Assembly (NCBI RefSeq): GCF_000243115.2
Contig: NZ_CP007035.1
Span: 3,224,001 to 3,288,000 of the forward strand
Length of the DNA: 64,000 nt
Direction of reading: 5' to 3'
Source of the DNA: Niabella soli DSM 19437
GTDB taxonomy: Bacteria; Bacteroidota; Bacteroidia; Chitinophagales; Chitinophagaceae
Shown: positions 38,462 to 43,265 of the stretch, in pieces
How the letters are laid out: the number at the start of each line of letters is the position of its first letter
How positions within the stretch are numbered: position 1 is the stretch's first letter
Made by a program: the position numbers and the translations under genes
The notes under the pieces: generated by a model
Database searches by the model: none
Seen by the model: the letters and a program-made list of their open reading frames with translations, nothing else
What the model was told of the DNA's origin: nothing

Positions 38462-39511
38462 ATGAGTCAACCCATTATCACCGGTATTGCCTCTTTTGGC
38501 ATGAGTGGAAAATTGTTTCACGCCCCCTTTATTGATGCGAGCCCTCATTATGAGTTAAGAGCCATCGTGGAGCGGCATAAAGAAGAATCCCGGGAACGCT
38601 ACCCCAACGCAAAGCTGTACCGTTCTTTCGACGAGCTGATAGCGGACCCGGAAATAGAACTGGTGATCGTTAATACCCCGGTGCAAACTCATTTTGAATA
38701 TTCAAAAAAAGCGCTGGAAGCGGGAAAAAATATTGTGGTGGAAAAGCCCTTTATGGTCAATGCCGGGCAAGCAGCACAAATAGACGCCCTGGCAAACGAA
38801 AAAAACCTGTTCCTGAGCGTATACCAGAACCGCCGGTATGATGGCGATTACAAGGCGATAAAGGATGTGGTGTCAGAAAATATGCTGGGCGAACTGAAGG
38901 AGGTAGAACTTCGCTATGACCGGTACCGGCCCGGCCACAGCGGTAAGGCACATAAAGAAGGCGACCAGCCGGGCGCCGGCAACTTGCACGACCTGGGTGC
39001 CCATCTTATTGACCAGGCGCTGCAGTTATTTGGTTTTCCCGAAGCTGTTTTTGCCGACATTTTAACCATGCGGACGGAACTGATCGCCAATGATTATTTT
39101 GAAGTACTCCTTTTTTATCCCAGGCCCTTCAGGGTACGAATTAAAGGAACCGTTTTTGCTAAGGAATCGCCCTATCCGTTTGTGCTCCAGGGCGAGAATG
39201 GCACTTTTTTACAGCAGCGGTCGGACCTGCAGGAATCTAAACTGCTGGAAGGCGTGAAACCCTCTATCGAACCATGGATTTCTACGCCGGAAGGATTTGA
39301 CGGGGTACTCCACACCACCATCAACGGCCTGGACGTGCAGCAACAAACACGCTCTGAAATGGGGAACTATATGAACTATTATGAAGATGTTTATCGTGCG
39401 CTGCGCAACCACGGGCCTAACCCTGTGCCGGCTTCGGATGCAGTTTTAACCATGCGCGTGATCGATGCGGCACTGCAAAGCAGTAAGGAAAGAAGAGTGG
39501 TGACGCTTTAA
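38462..39511 (+). CDS. Gfo/Idh/MocA oxidoreductase (cytoplasmic)
   Basis: A 349-residue NAD(P)-dependent oxidoreductase without a signal peptide. Rossmann start GIASFGMSGKLFHAPFI, the conserved EKPFM near residue 98, then YQNRRYDGDY and the catalytic-domain HDLGAHLIDQALQLFG. The sequence resembles the YdgJ/YvaA-type branch of the family, acting on inositol or sugar-like alcohols; the substrate is not defined. It stands alone between an arginase-fold gene and a convergent helical protein gene. Confidence 0.88.
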   Translation: MSQPIITGIASFGMSGKLFHAPFIDASPHYELRAIVERHKEESRERYPNAKLYRSFDELIADPEIELVIVNTPVQTHFEYSKKALEAGKNIVVEKPFMVNAGQAAQIDALANEKNLFLSVYQNRRYDGDYKAIKDVVSENMLGELKEVELRYDRYRPGHSGKAHKEGDQPGAGNLHDLGAHLIDQALQLFGFPEAVFADILTMRTELIANDYFEVLLFYPRPFRVRIKGTVFAKESPYPFVLQGENGTFLQQRSDLQESKLLEGVKPSIEPWISTPEGFDGVLHTTINGLDVQQQTRSEMGNYMNYYEDVYRALRNHGPNPVPASDAVLTMRVIDAALQSSKERRVVTL

Positions 39512-41085
39512 TGATCCACCTCCACCGGAACCACATTTTTGCTATGCTTGCTTTGCCGGAACTTTTCTTCTATAATGGTGCGCATTGATTTGCCTTCCAC
39601 CTTGCTTTCCAGCCAGGAAATTATATCCAGGTACGCAAACGACCGGGTCTCAAACCGGTTCCCTTCCAGGTGTTTTACTTTATGCAGGAATTTTGCGAAC
39701 TCCGGCTTTAACTCATTCCTTGAATAATGAAACGAGCCCCGGAAGAAACGAAAGATCTCCTGCTCAATAACCGTAAGATTTTTCATTTTTGACATATAGC
39801 GGAATACAGACCGCGTCAGCGAATCCATCAGCTCGAGGTTGCCCAACTCATAATGCGCCAGCAAATGCACCAGCCGGGCATAACATTGCAGATCGGTCCT
39901 TAAATCTGATGAATCATTAATGATCTTCTGCAGATAGTCAATACTGGTGCTGTAATCGCCCGAAAGGAAGTACAGCATCGCTATTTTATAATTAATCACC
40001 ATTACCCGGTGCCGGTCCAGGAATAAGGCATATTCCGACAACTTATCCTCGATATAAGGCACTTCCCGCAGGCCCGCTGCGGTTTGCCCGGTTATGGTAA
40101 AATAATTGATCTTGGCGCTGGCAATATACACAAAGGACTGTACCCGAAAATTCTCATTACTTTGTACCCGCTTGGTATGACTAAAGTCCTCGAACTGATG
40201 CAGATCGATCGTAAATTTCTCGTAATTCCTCAAGTCAAAATGGGCGTTCAATAAATTATGATATCCCCGGATAAAATGCCCGGTTTCCGCCCGCTGCATG
40301 GTGGGCTTTTCATAAAACAGGTCTACCCATTTCTGCACATACCGGTAATACAATAAAAAGTCCTGCCGGATAAAAGCGTACCAGGTATAACTCTGATAAT
40401 AATACAGGCGTTCATAAAACCCTCCCTGCTGCGCCGACCCGGAGGGAAGATTTTGCCGGAAAAACTTTTTCACTTTATCCTCTTCCGCCTCGTTCCGCGC
40501 ATGCCCGTTGGCTATAAAAAAGCCGTACATCTGCAGGGAAAGGTTAGAGAGGCGGGTGATCATATTCAGCTTGGTATTGGCTTCGTTCGATTCTTCGGCC
40601 AGTTCATCCATGCGGCTCACAAAACTATTGGTAACGTTCAGCGCCTCAATACGTTTCTCCAGCGATAGCAATTGTGGTAAAAAGAAAAATTTCTGGTTCA
40701 GCTTGGCCGTTTCCTTTGCCTTATCAATAACCCGCAGACTTTGGTAAAATAATCCTTTTTTATAGAGAATATGAGCGGTATCGAATAATTCATTTAATTG
40801 AAGATCAAGACTTTCGCTGCTTTTCAGCAAGCGCAGCCCTGCCAAAATTTCCCGGTACAGGTGCGATTTAAGGTTAGATAGCTGTGGTTTGGTTACGTCT
40901 TTCAGCTTTTTCAGCAACGCCTTTTCATCGTATTGCGGCATTTTGTCCAGCGCATCAAAAAGCTTGATCACTTTAAGATCTTCGTTTCCGGAGCTACGGG
41001 TAATATACAGCTTAAAATGCCGTTTCTCAGACTTTTCTAATGATTTGATCAATTGAAATAATATATCTCCGGGCTTGCTTGGCAT
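39508..41085 (-). CDS. helical-repeat (TPR-like) protein of unknown function
   Basis: About 525 residues, nearly all alpha-helical, no signal peptide. Helix pairs with TPR-like spacing are evident (LFDTAHILYKKGLFYQSLRVIDKAKETA; LYFLSGDYSTSIDYLQKIIND). The N-terminus MPSKPGDILFQLIKSLEKSEKRHFKLYI recurs in Chitinophagaceae proteins as far as I remember, with no known function. The start at 41085 is preferred over 41106 because a good promoter (-7 box 41092-41099) lies between them. The stop overlaps the convergent oxidoreductase stop by 4 bases. It borders the small-RNA array. Confidence 0.65.
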   Translation of the reverse strand: MPSKPGDILFQLIKSLEKSEKRHFKLYITRSSGNEDLKVIKLFDALDKMPQYDEKALLKKLKDVTKPQLSNLKSHLYREILAGLRLLKSSESLDLQLNELFDTAHILYKKGLFYQSLRVIDKAKETAKLNQKFFFLPQLLSLEKRIEALNVTNSFVSRMDELAEESNEANTKLNMITRLSNLSLQMYGFFIANGHARNEAEEDKVKKFFRQNLPSGSAQQGGFYERLYYYQSYTWYAFIRQDFLLYYRYVQKWVDLFYEKPTMQRAETGHFIRGYHNLLNAHFDLRNYEKFTIDLHQFEDFSHTKRVQSNENFRVQSFVYIASAKINYFTITGQTAAGLREVPYIEDKLSEYALFLDRHRVMVINYKIAMLYFLSGDYSTSIDYLQKIINDSSDLRTDLQCYARLVHLLAHYELGNLELMDSLTRSVFRYMSKMKNLTVIEQEIFRFFRGSFHYSRNELKPEFAKFLHKVKHLEGNRFETRSFAYLDIISWLESKVEGKSMRTIIEEKFRQSKHSKNVVPVEVDH

Positions 41086-41091
41086 AATGCG

Positions 41092-41121
41092 CAAATTTAA
41101 CGGCAATCATTACATAAACAA
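41092..41121 (-). promoter_or_regulatory. promoter of the helical-repeat protein gene
   Basis: On the minus strand TTG (41119-41121) and TAAATTTG (41092-41099) are 19 bases apart. The -7 box ends 6 bases before the ATG at 41085 and fixes that start. A second match (41132-41139) lies further upstream. Confidence 0.6.
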
Positions 41122-41239
41122 TAATATCGAGCAAAAATAGCCTTGGACATCGGAAGCATAACAACGCAAACCACAGTACTGTAAAGGGTTTTAGCGTTTT
41201 TATAACGCTTTAGCCATACGAGCCGGGTCCAATTGTTGG

Positions 41240-41272
41240 TTTGGAAGCCCCTCATCAAAAGGACTATCTTTG
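41240..41272 (+). promoter_or_regulatory. promoter of small-RNA element A
   Basis: TTTG at 41240-41243 and TATCTTTG at 41265-41272, 21 bases apart. It is followed by the RNA-like element ending at 41396. Confidence 0.65.
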
Positions 41273-41277
41273 TGTAA

Positions 41278-41396
41278 CAAATGAGGGGTTGAATAAGTGA
41301 GACAAAAGCTGTAAGCAGCAAAAGCAGATTTTTACTTTTTTTCATATGGCAAGCAATCGTTAGAGGTCAGTCCGTTTCTACGGAAGGACCTTTTTT
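41278..41396 (+). ncRNA. putative small RNA A with intrinsic terminator
   Basis: About 119 bases from the expected transcript start to the U-run. It contains GCTG-TAAG-CAGC (small hairpin), a T-run, CATATGGCAAGCAATCGTTAG, and the terminator: stem AGGTC/GACCT, a 2x2 AG/AG internal loop, inner stem TCCGT/ACGGA, loop TTCT, then TTTTTT. Element C is a near copy over the whole length, with the same promoter layout. A minus-strand open frame (41097-41345) overlaps it, but the conservation is better explained by RNA. Confidence 0.6.
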
Positions 41397-41507
41397 CTTT
41401 AGCATTATTTTAACGATTGAAGAAGAATCTTTTTAATTGATTCATCGTCCTATTACCAGAACTGTTTTATTAAATAAGTATAAAACAGTACAATAAAGAG
41501 TTTTACA

Positions 41508-41570
41508 TTTTTTTCATATGGCAAGCAATTGTTAGAGGTCGGTCTGTTTCTACAGAAAGACCCTTTTTTT
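41508..41570 (+). ncRNA. terminator-like RNA element B
   Basis: Copy of the conserved 60-base core. The inner stem is TCTGT/ACAGA in place of TCCGT/ACGGA of element A: a compensatory pair change. The internal loop is GG/AA. The segment upstream differs from A and C; a CTGTTTTAT/ATAAAACAG inverted repeat lies before it. No full promoter was found. Confidence 0.5.
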
Positions 41571-41629
41571 TAACTGTGTAATTTTCGCCAGAGAATAAAT
41601 TGGTTACCGATCATCCAGTACGCTAAATA

Positions 41630-41697
41630 AAAAAAGCAACCATCAGAGGCAATCAAAGTTAGAGGTCATTATAAATAACTTTCGTTATTTATGATCA
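41630..41697 (+). ncRNA. divergent element E (GGCAA...AGAGGTCA plus hairpin)
   Basis: Shares GGCAA-n-CAA and GTTAGAGGTCA with the core but carries a different hairpin: ATAAATAAC, loop TTTC, GTTATTTAT. It is preceded by AAATAAAAAAAGC, as is element F. No U-run follows. Confidence 0.35.
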
Positions 41698-41956
41698 ATA
41701 GCAACTTAATACGGTTAATAAAAAGTTAATTGATTTCGAGCAACTAAAATAGCGGTATTTTTTAACAGCAAGTTATTTTATTTGAAGATTTTTTTAACTT
41801 TTTGATTTTCTCCAGTAATTATTGATTTAATTATACAATTTTCAAAAAAATAAATGCCTTGGATATAATTATTCTTTGGCCGTGTATTGCAGACACAGCC
41901 TGCATTTCACTCTTTTTTTGATGAATTGAAAGTGATAGGATCCGCAATAGTTTGTG

Positions 41957-41987
41957 TTTGCAGGCGGTTCCAGGGGTGTTAACTTTG
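41957..41987 (+). promoter_or_regulatory. promoter of small-RNA element C
   Basis: TTTG at 41957-41960 and TAACTTTG at 41980-41987 with a 19-base gap: a very good Bacteroidota promoter, in the same place as that of element A. Confidence 0.7.
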
Positions 41988-41992
41988 TGTAA

Positions 41993-42117
41993 CAATTGAG
42001 GGGAGAGTTGGAAAGTGAGACAAAAGCTGTAGGCAGCAAAAATTGTAGTTTTTTAAGTTTTTTCATATGGCAAGCAATCGTTAGAGGTCAGTCCGTTTCT
42101 ACGGAAGGACCTTTTTT
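41993..42117 (+). ncRNA. putative small RNA C with intrinsic terminator
   Basis: About 124 bases, a near copy of element A: the same GTGTAACAA start, GAGGGG, GTGAGACAAAAGCTG, hairpin GCTG-TAGG-CAGC and the identical 55-base terminator core. Small insertions of 3 bases separate the two. The overlapping minus-strand open frame (41869-42066) shows amino-acid changes at second codon positions, which speaks against protein selection. Confidence 0.6.
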
Positions 42118-42130
42118 GTATTGATTATCA

Positions 42131-42220
42131 ACAAATAAAAAAAGCGAACTCCAGGAGAAATTCGCTGATTCATTTAAGGCAAGGTCACTCGCAGAGGTCA
42201 TTAAAATGCGTTGATCATGG
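42131..42220 (+). ncRNA. divergent element F (hairpin plus GGCAA...AGAGGTCA)
   Basis: Begins with AAATAAAAAAAGCG, then a hairpin AGCGAA/TTCGCT with inner CTCC/GGAG, followed by GGCAAGGTCACTCGCAGAGGTCATTA. It resembles element E in its lead and the core in its AGAGGTCA part. No U-run. Confidence 0.35.
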
Positions 42221-42435
42221 GTAATTTAACACTAATATAGGATATATATTATTAAAATGTTAAACGGGGCGATAATATTTTTGTTTTTAAAATTTTCACC
42301 CGTTTTTATTAGTTTTTATTCAATGCTGAAAGTTAAGCAATCCAGATTCGCGTGTTAATTGTACCCGATTATTAGCTTTTTTGATTGTTAACTTAACTGT
42401 AACATTAGCAATGTTTTAAAGTGGCACGAATTCTG

Positions 42436-42527
42436 TTTACTTTGTATCAGAAGTTATTTATTAACTTTTTTCATATGGCAAGCAATCGTTAGAGGTCAGT
42501 CTGTTTCTACAGAAGGACCTTTTTTTA
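42436..42527 (+). ncRNA. terminator-like RNA element D overlapping the GH28-like stop
   Basis: The conserved core starts near 42464; inner stem TCTGT/ACAGA as in B, internal loop AG/AG as in A. A weaker promoter-like TTACTTTG lies at about 42437-42444. The terminal T-run supplies the stop codon (TAA, read on the other strand at 42525-42527) of the shortened GH28-like gene. Confidence 0.5.
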
Positions 42528-43265
42528 TTCCCGGATACTTTTCCCCCGGGGGTCAATTGTCCGGTCTACCCGGATATTAGTACTTTGTAACGCTTCCAAT
42601 AACGGGCGTTGCAACACATCAATATAGGAATCCTTTATTGCTATTTTTTCCGATTTAAGAATCAGAATGCCCCCGGCGCCCCTGGCCTGCTTACTCGTTA
42701 TATTTATATTTTCAACGCTCACATCCCTGCAATGATCAAAAAGCTGGGCTTTCCCGCATCCGTTCCAGAGGTTTACCGAATCAATCTTTATGTTGGCACA
42801 ATTGGTAAATGCCATTAATGCGGCGTTTGCAAGGTCCTTTTGCCCCGCATATCCCTTTTTTTGAAGCATAGCAATATTTTCGAGCAGGGCAGGACCGTTT
42901 CCGTCAATTACCCCTTTTCCTGAGATCCCGATATTCTTCTGGCCGTCTGCGCTGATCAGGGCTTTTATTTTTGCAGTATCATTATAGTCATAAATGGAGG
43001 AGGCGCCTACCAGCACTGCCCCTTCCTCAAGCTTAAGGATCACATTTGATTTAAGCAGTATACTTCCGGTTACATAACGGCCTACATAGAATACCAGCCG
43101 GCCGCCCCCGTTTTCATGAATAAAATCAATTGCCTTTTGTATAGACCGGGTATTATTGGTTACACCGTCTGACAGGATCCCAAACAGGGAGGCTTTGTAA
43201 TCTTTTGCCCCTGCCAGCAAAGGAAAAGCAATTATTAAAAGCAGTATTACTTTCAGCTTTTTCAT
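42525..43265 (-). CDS. shortened GH28-like right-handed beta-helix protein
   Basis: A 246-residue exported protein (signal peptide ending LLAGAKD) related to the 493-residue GH28 enzyme encoded next to it. It aligns over the first half (NGGGRLVFYVGRYVTGSILLKSNVILKLEEGAV; ISGKGVIDGNG; FDHCRDVSVENINI) and stops just after the catalytic region. There the NNDGID and DD catalytic acids of the neighbour are replaced by GAGGIL and DV, so it should be inactive. The stop codon is formed by the T-run of RNA element D. It is probably a decayed or truncated duplicate; a binding role is possible. Confidence 0.7.
   Translation of the reverse strand: MKKLKVILLLIIAFPLLAGAKDYKASLFGILSDGVTNNTRSIQKAIDFIHENGGGRLVFYVGRYVTGSILLKSNVILKLEEGAVLVGASSIYDYNDTAKIKALISADGQKNIGISGKGVIDGNGPALLENIAMLQKKGYAGQKDLANAALMAFTNCANIKIDSVNLWNGCGKAQLFDHCRDVSVENINITSKQARGAGGILILKSEKIAIKDSYIDVLQRPLLEALQSTNIRVDRTIDPRGKSIRE

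Follow-up and report, generated by a model that had tools for sequence, protein, structure and literature searches.

In Bacteroides thetaiotaomicron, the FopS sRNAs pair next to the start codon of SusC mRNAs and so block their translation; in-line probing and in-vitro translation back this pairing, and RbpB counteracts the RNAs. According to the accessible part of the same report, FopS has been deposited in Rfam (PMC11697453). A second Bacteroides sRNA, GibS, resembles the RNAs described below in pairing across the start codons of metabolic mRNAs and differs from them in being a single sRNA of ~145 nt; its seed region is long and 5'-located, and its two direct targets named in the accessible text, BT_0771 and BT_3893, are not SusC genes (PMC7366714). 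Among the open-licence papers listed for sRNAs in Chitinophagaceae, in Niabella, in Chitinophaga together with SusC, and in Chitinophagales, none concerns a family of the present kind, and as far as this literature was surveyed, sRNA control of SusC transporters is described only for FopS of gut Bacteroides. In another phylum, the Hfq-dependent sigma-E sRNAs RybB, MicA and MicL of enterobacteria silence many outer-membrane protein mRNAs at the translation start, one of them being derived from a 3' end; we know of no sequence relation between these RNAs and the present family.

Here we analyze an array of short RNA units within a 64,000-nt stretch of the Niabella soli DSM 19437 genome (hereafter the window). 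We consider it probable, at roughly 75%, that the array consists of paralogous trans-acting sRNAs of a Chitinophagaceae-wide family that silence SusC translation. As far as the accessible text on FopS goes, the likeness covers paralogous, multicopy Bacteroidota sRNAs with a single-stranded seed and an intrinsic terminator, the origin of one FopS member from a 3' UTR, and pairing at the SusC start codon, which for the present RNAs is computed only (PMC11697453). FopS is, however, described from Bacteroidaceae with 12–15 copies, whereas the present RNAs occur in Chitinophagaceae with 1–9 copies in carriers, and its seed lies in an unpaired 5' stretch with the terminator downstream, whereas the present core touches its terminator (PMC11697453, accessible part). 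The present RNAs differ further in their two recurring genomic contexts and in having no Rfam match. On this comparison they would work like FopS, which does not imply identity with it: copy number, seed position and host range set the two apart.

Four predicted RNA units between a TPR-like and a GH28-like gene

The array is flanked by two minus-strand genes, a TPR-like gene starting at 41085 and a GH28-like gene whose stop lies at 42525. A preliminary description of this DNA had reported four copies of a core followed by a hairpin, which own-genome BLAST and a covariance model (R2) both confirm. Copy 1 (41278..41396, plus strand) is a predicted RNA of ~120 nt, its start placed according to the promoter, with the core CATATGGCAAGCAATCGTTAGAGGTC at 41343-41368, the terminator at 41365-41396 and an R2 match at 41331-41394. 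Copy 2 (41503..41566, plus strand) combines a core with one change (CGT to TGT; 41515-41540) with a terminator. Copy 3 (41993..42117, plus strand), a predicted RNA of ~125 nt whose start is likewise placed by its promoter, has its model match at 42052-42115 and its core at 42064-42089, and copy 4 (42460..42523, plus strand) carries the core at 42472-42497 together with the terminator. The order of elements is the same in all four, namely a U-run, the core (with the single change in copy 2), the hairpin and then Ts, and copies 1 and 3 additionally have the 5' module GTGAGACAAAAGCTGTARGCAGCA in common. The hairpin with its U-run and the stem change between TCCGT/ACGGA and TCTGT/ACAGA are as originally claimed. 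Together, the four copies constitute repeat family D1 of the window.

R2 scores these copies at 86.9–91.9 bits (E 1.1e-17 to 8.1e-19), values that are partly by construction because the four are among the model's 34 rows, and the next best plus-strand match reaches 3.5 bits with filters off. Independently of the model, BLAST against the own genome (4.70 Mb) recovered the four copies at E 1e-19 or better, all other listed matches having E values of at least 0.165. Compared with shuffled sequences, copies 1 to 4 fold with z-scores of −2.42, −1.94, −2.24 and −3.08. A scan for sigma-70 promoters and simple terminators was uninformative: its counts were near those of shuffles, and it missed the four family hairpins, which have interrupted stems. 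The earlier statement that no named RNA family fits agrees with the Rfam comparison, in which no family reached its gathering score in the window; a permissive search of 41000-42700 (E up to 5) gave four matches, all to other families and far below their cut-offs, and FopS was not among them (release 15, which may or may not include FopS).

Two full TTTG-19/21-TAnnTTTG promoters had been proposed, and both are present on the plus strand and of the Bacteroidota -33/-7 type. The promoter of copy 1 (41240..41272) reads TTTG (41240-41243), 21 nt and TATCTTTG (41265-41272), that of copy 3 (41957..41987) TTTG (41957-41960), 19 nt and TAACTTTG (41980-41987), and copy 4 has TTACTTTG upstream in place of its relatives' TATCTTTG. 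Taken alone, TAnnTTTG is neither rarer nor commoner in the window than expected (63 occurrences vs 64.8 by chance). Upstream of standalone cores, it was found at a distance of 30–215 nt in 94 of 138 cases (shuffle mean 16.5; other strand 19), with the -7 box mostly 50–140 nt upstream of the core. By motif only, the standalone copies have their own promoter.

The two divergent relatives noted earlier within the array also prove to be real, as judged by their counterparts in the 16 same-genus loci (L021-L036, some of them incomplete). Relative 1 (CAACCATCAGAGGCAATCAAAGTTAGAGGTCAT; 41637..41669, plus strand) has a counterpart in 12 of these 16 loci, reading GCAATCGTYAGAGGCAATCAAWTTAGAGGTC or similar, and relative 2 (TCATTTAAGGCAAGGTCACTCGCAGAGGTCATT; 42170..42202, plus strand) has one in 6 of 16, most of them identical to GACAATCGTTAGAGGTCA. 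Some of these counterparts resemble the core more than those of the window do (GACAATCGTTAGAGGTCAT). This holds although R2, with filters off, puts relative 1 at noise (41632-41684, 1.8 bits, E 4.4) and lists no match near 42131; the folding z-scores are −2.58 and −0.82, respectively. The sequences near 41625 and 42133 resemble each other (repeat family D4), and at the second place part of this resemblance falls on a U-tailed minus-strand hairpin (42166-42143). We mention this hairpin for context, as an element outside the family; it is a possible terminator of the GH28-side operon after an antisense run through copy 4. A free-standing double motif between sRNA copies, for example GGCAATCGTTAGAGGCAATCAATTAGAGGTC, was observed in L030, L031, L032, L034, L035 and at 41637-41669 of the window.

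Distribution, conservation and genomic neighbors

With R2, in a search whose filters can cost weak matches, the sRNA was found in 80 of 117 Chitinophagaceae genomes (own included) and 70 of 100 genera, at 1–9 copies per carrier. A DNA search of 99 genomes, again including the own one, gave matches in 48, comprising the own genome, all 16 others of the genus and 31 of 43 other family members, one of which (G017) matches over 23 promoter-side bases only and has no model match; none of the 39 genomes from other families of the order matched. In a phylum-wide sample of 148 genomes, six had a match, four within the family (own included) and two outside. The latter two, L178 and L179 from another family (35.9 and 34.6 bits), share the hairpin and were not counted as members because the core is absent, and nothing convincing emerged outside Chitinophagaceae among the genomes searched with the model. 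An exact 24-mer of the core occurs in at least 120 stretches of a named genome collection, and nearly all of 80 titles among these are labeled Chitinophagaceae, a genus of that family, Chitinophagales, Sphingobacteriales or plain Bacteroidetes/Bacteroidota. The matches listed also include one metagenome bin labeled Flavobacterium and one labeled Pedobacter. Most of the 20 family genomes listed as lacking the sRNA are smaller than 4.5 Mb, the exception being G022 at 8.0 Mb, and presence of the sRNA may track the number of SusC genes; G041, which lacks it, has one SusC over the cut-off.

Within the family, the core CATATGGCAAGCAATCGTTAGAGG is nearly invariant, and the adjoining terminator stem varies in compensating pairs. 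We counted core variation on loci obtained by BLAST or model search, since loci found through the 24-mer cannot show it, and 57 of these 64 cores contain the 24-mer unchanged, a proportion that leans high because the loci are the best matches of the searches and some genomes enter twice. Four diverged copies retain CATATRGCAAGCAATCGTTA, the letters beyond it changing along with the stem. For the terminator, a first model (R1) was discarded for its wrong fold, the alignment having shifted the terminator arms, and was replaced by R2, built from rows of one geometry: 81 of 133 unique sequences were long enough, 73 had at least 7 of 8 pairs, and 34 of these 73 were used. In the helix of these 34 selected sequences, changes on both sides occur at 5 of 8 pairs, with 37 double-changed cells compared to 13.2 in shuffles; the pairing percentage follows by construction from the pre-selection of rows for geometry, whereas the double changes do not. 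Judging from this alignment, the terminator is kept through compensating changes. The combination of constant unpaired letters with a covarying terminator suggests an RNA whose unpaired letters contact something, and near invariance across 24 nt seems to exceed what SusC pairing alone needs.

The preliminary description had proposed an sRNA family that arose by local duplication. Promoter motif, near-invariant unpaired core and covarying terminator support this proposal, and the covariance-model search extends the family beyond the array over the Chitinophagaceae. On sequence grounds, it is a real, so far unnamed sRNA family of Chitinophagaceae-wide extent, whose transcription we infer.

Two genomic contexts recur. 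The first is the TPR-like gene (39508..41085, minus strand; motif SEKRHFKLY), which diverges from the first copy in the window and lies opposite the first copy in 63 of 144 loci, a set that is partly non-independent because some genomes occur twice and some loci are second copies; a protein search gave 62 of 136. Its SEKRHF motif is located ~20 codons into the gene and 192–316 nt from the core. The best named relative of the window's TPR-like protein is NCBIfam BT_2802_fam ('ribose utilization protein'), of which it is not a member, since its 124.8 bits fall below the cut-off of 550. BT2802 is presumably RusR, the regulator of the ribose-uptake locus. RusR and BT2803-2809 are named in the accessible part of PMC12596196. 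The TPR-like protein is possibly a regulator linked to the sRNA.

In the second context, comprising 32 of 180 cores, the unit starts 6–86 nt past the stop of a gene for a small lipoprotein. These genes have 57 to 94 codons, in most cases no more than 70, and one of the proteins matches the PG1828 lipoprotein family at 34.1 bits, below the cut-off of 50. None of these 32 copies has TAnnTTTG 30–215 nt upstream, and 30 of the 32 lipoprotein genes have an upstream element of their own, GGTTAC...GTATWAA (or GGATWAA), with a total length of 28–29 and ending 28–40 nt before the ATG; for both reasons, the lipoprotein-linked copies are probably 3' UTR-derived. The element, in the form GGTTAC[CTA]...GTATWAA (L046, L061, L063 and others), resembles a promoter of an alternative sigma factor, and by eye AAAAGTAACCC is often seen further upstream. 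The two GH28 genes of the window recur in none of 136 other loci, most of which are 3–8 kb long. The link to glycans that had been suggested is thus upheld through predicted SusC targets elsewhere in the genome and not through the adjoining pectin locus.

Complementarity to SusC start regions

The complement of UUUUUUCAU reads as a start codon with lysine codons behind it. Among 27 genes with AACGAT at their start, taken from sampled stretches of several genomes, inspection by eye brought out a few for SusC, SusD and other proteins of sugar use, and it is from these that the SusC hypothesis arose; L126, an 8-kb record assigned to G250, was within this sample and gave none of its matches. We therefore identified SusC genes by TIGR04056, averaged the duplex energies between the 30-nt core and their start regions (-60 to +40, start codons chosen by rule), and compared this mean to that of 200 shuffled cores. 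At most the best 56 SusC matches per genome were scored, so that true totals may be higher, and the regions used were 50 of 56 in the own genome, 50 of 56 in G250, 30 of 56 in G265 and 49 of 56 in G022, as well as 10 of the 11 over the cut-off in G098 and 30 of 50 SusD genes of the own genome; L386 and L399 were left out owing to a stop in the expected frame.

In the own genome (n = 50), the mean energy was −14.70 vs −12.22 for shuffled cores (z −3.33, 0/200 shuffles as good), and the same was found in G250 from another genus (n = 50; z −3.12, 0/200) and in G265 from a third (n = 30; z −4.67, 0/200). No such preference appeared in G022 (n = 49; z +0.35, 129/200), a member of the same family in which neither DNA nor model search found the sRNA, nor in susD of the own genome (n = 30; z +0.76, 154/200), which removes SusD as a candidate target, in 330 other genes of the own genome (z +0.09, 55/100), or in the G265 SusC genes when regions 200–300 nt upstream (z +0.94) or inside the genes (z +0.42) were used. 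Dinucleotide shuffles gave 0/100, 1/100 and 0/100 in the three carriers and 78/100 in G022. G022 is the only well-powered genome among those tested that lack the sRNA; G098, with 10 SusC sequences used, gave z −0.10, and G041 had been considered as a third and was unusable with its one SusC over the cut-off.

Word counts point in the same direction. A perfect 7-base complement of GGCAAGCAATCGTTA, from the 3' part of the core, is present in 39 of 130 carrier SusC starts across the three genera (mean of 5.0 per 130 for shuffled sites, with 0/500 reaching 39), compared to 2 of 49 in G022 (Fisher 1e-4), 24 of 330 among the other own genes (Fisher 1.7e-9) and 1 of 30 in susD. The corresponding 8-mer count sets carriers (18 of 130) apart from other genes, while the difference to G022 (2 of 49) is not significant (Fisher 0.11). 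Tested in parts, the terminator showed nothing against shuffles, the core 3' segment had a modest effect, with z between −1.0 and −1.3 in carriers and at +1.3 in G022, and the anti-start segment UUUUUUCAUAUGGCAA beat shuffles in G022 too (z −3.65, 0/60) because ATGAAA starts are common. The contrast between carriers and non-carrier is one of the whole core together with the word counts. An unbiased ranking of the 7-mers that precede start codons puts AACGATT (14 vs 4.1 expected) only ~167th of 1027; over all starts the enrichment of complement words is weak and unexceptional, and the signal appears only after genes are split by class. The best predicted duplexes span the start codon, for instance with 15 neighboring pairs in L251 and at least two blocks in L249 and L234; L246 is another strong prediction in the own genome. 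The SusC gene of the window itself matches only weakly, with −14.0 at -55 to -35 and −8.8 nearer the start. In conclusion, complementarity between the core and SusC start regions is seen in three carrier genera.

Two further candidate partners were rejected. The TPR-like gene showed no preference over its 63 start regions (z +1.12), yet its copy in the window is the best among window genes (−16.9). A full-length antisense partner was sought with the reverse complement of 21 core bases; even with up to 3 mismatches allowed, the own genome offers no other site for it. Separately, other apparent sugar-use genes with AACGATTG words at the start codon (L193, L207, L216; by eye a sugar MFS transporter, a DUF3826-like gene and a LacI-type gene) may be targets.

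Competing explanations and proposed role

The core might alternatively be a binding site for a protein, with the repeated motif GCAATCGTTAGAGG making the RNA a sponge or carrier and the SusC complementarity secondary. A repeated motif can sequester a protein, as in CsrB, and the core is more invariant than most base-pairing seeds. In 43 of 138 standalone cases, against 0.04 in shuffles, the core is preceded by an additional, split version of the motif (GCAAGCAATCG...TTAGAGGC), which by eye is sometimes placed between short complementary stretches resembling AAATGAG and CTCATTT (L143, L083 and L165, from other genera); the free-standing double motifs of this genus would suit the same reading, as would the binding of FopS by the Bacteroides protein RbpB (PMC11697453, accessible part). 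The split motif is, however, missing from 95 of the 138 standalone copies and from all 32 lipoprotein-linked ones, and a protein site gives no reason to expect that SusC starts match the core in three carriers and fail to do so in G022. We consider this explanation improbable, though the best placed of the alternatives.

Far less credible is a micro-ORF, in which the core would read ATG GCA AGC AAT CGT TAG (MASNR, stop), with selection acting on the peptide or on the act of translating it. The frame is intact in nearly all counted cores, but two diverged copies of one genome (L177, L183) have CATATA for CATATG, and the near fixation extends to the flanks of the frame (TTTCAT on the 5' side, AGAGG on the 3' side) and to its silent positions. 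Slightly less plausible still are mobile-element remnants, or mere terminator repeats, of no regulatory role: the units are indeed short, shared, tandem and multi-copy, but their neighbors recur in the two contexts above, the constant part is the core and not the terminator, and neither the array region in phage and plasmid records nor the exact 24-mer in viral contigs found a match. A cis-acting leader or attenuator, the second option of the preliminary description, is about equally improbable: terminator-bearing RNAs can act as attenuators, but the gene downstream of the array is on the opposite strand, which leaves no same-strand gene to control, a terminator closes every single copy, and in other loci the unit directly follows a gene.

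For the preferred reading, trans-acting sRNAs that silence SusC translation, we propose the following steps. Each standalone RNA would be transcribed from its own -33/-7 promoter and ended by the intrinsic terminator, and in other genomes some copies would instead form the end of a lipoprotein mRNA. The near-invariant core UUUUUCAUAUGGCAAGCAAUCGUUAGAGG, predicted to be unpaired directly before the terminator, would offer its 5' half to the start codon and its surroundings (e.g. UUGYCRUAUGAAAAAA) and its 3' half to AACGAUUGC words nearby. Pairing with the start of SusC-type transporter mRNAs would keep ribosomes off, and many glycan-uptake systems would thereby be turned down together. Transcription, binding in the cell, the direction of repression, the inducing signal and any protein partner are what we infer in this scheme.

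More speculatively, and with the odds against it, the two contexts may belong to one family-wide outer-membrane circuit, independent of FopS and the sigma-E RNAs, in which the anti-SusC core is carried in two ways, by free-standing RNAs that diverge from the TPR gene with its remote likeness to RusR, and by the 3' end of a lipoprotein mRNA under its separate promoter-like element, so that lipoprotein synthesis shuts down SusC. If true, this would amount to an envelope-load switch by which lipoprotein synthesis automatically shuts SusC transporters.

The RNAs described here are a candidate for a new Rfam family, and the 26-base core, the two recurring loci and the predicted target list make the proposal directly testable in cultivated Chitinophagaceae. 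If it is true, a second family in another order would make SusC silencing at the start codon by multicopy sRNAs a wider strategy of Bacteroidota, either old or reached twice.
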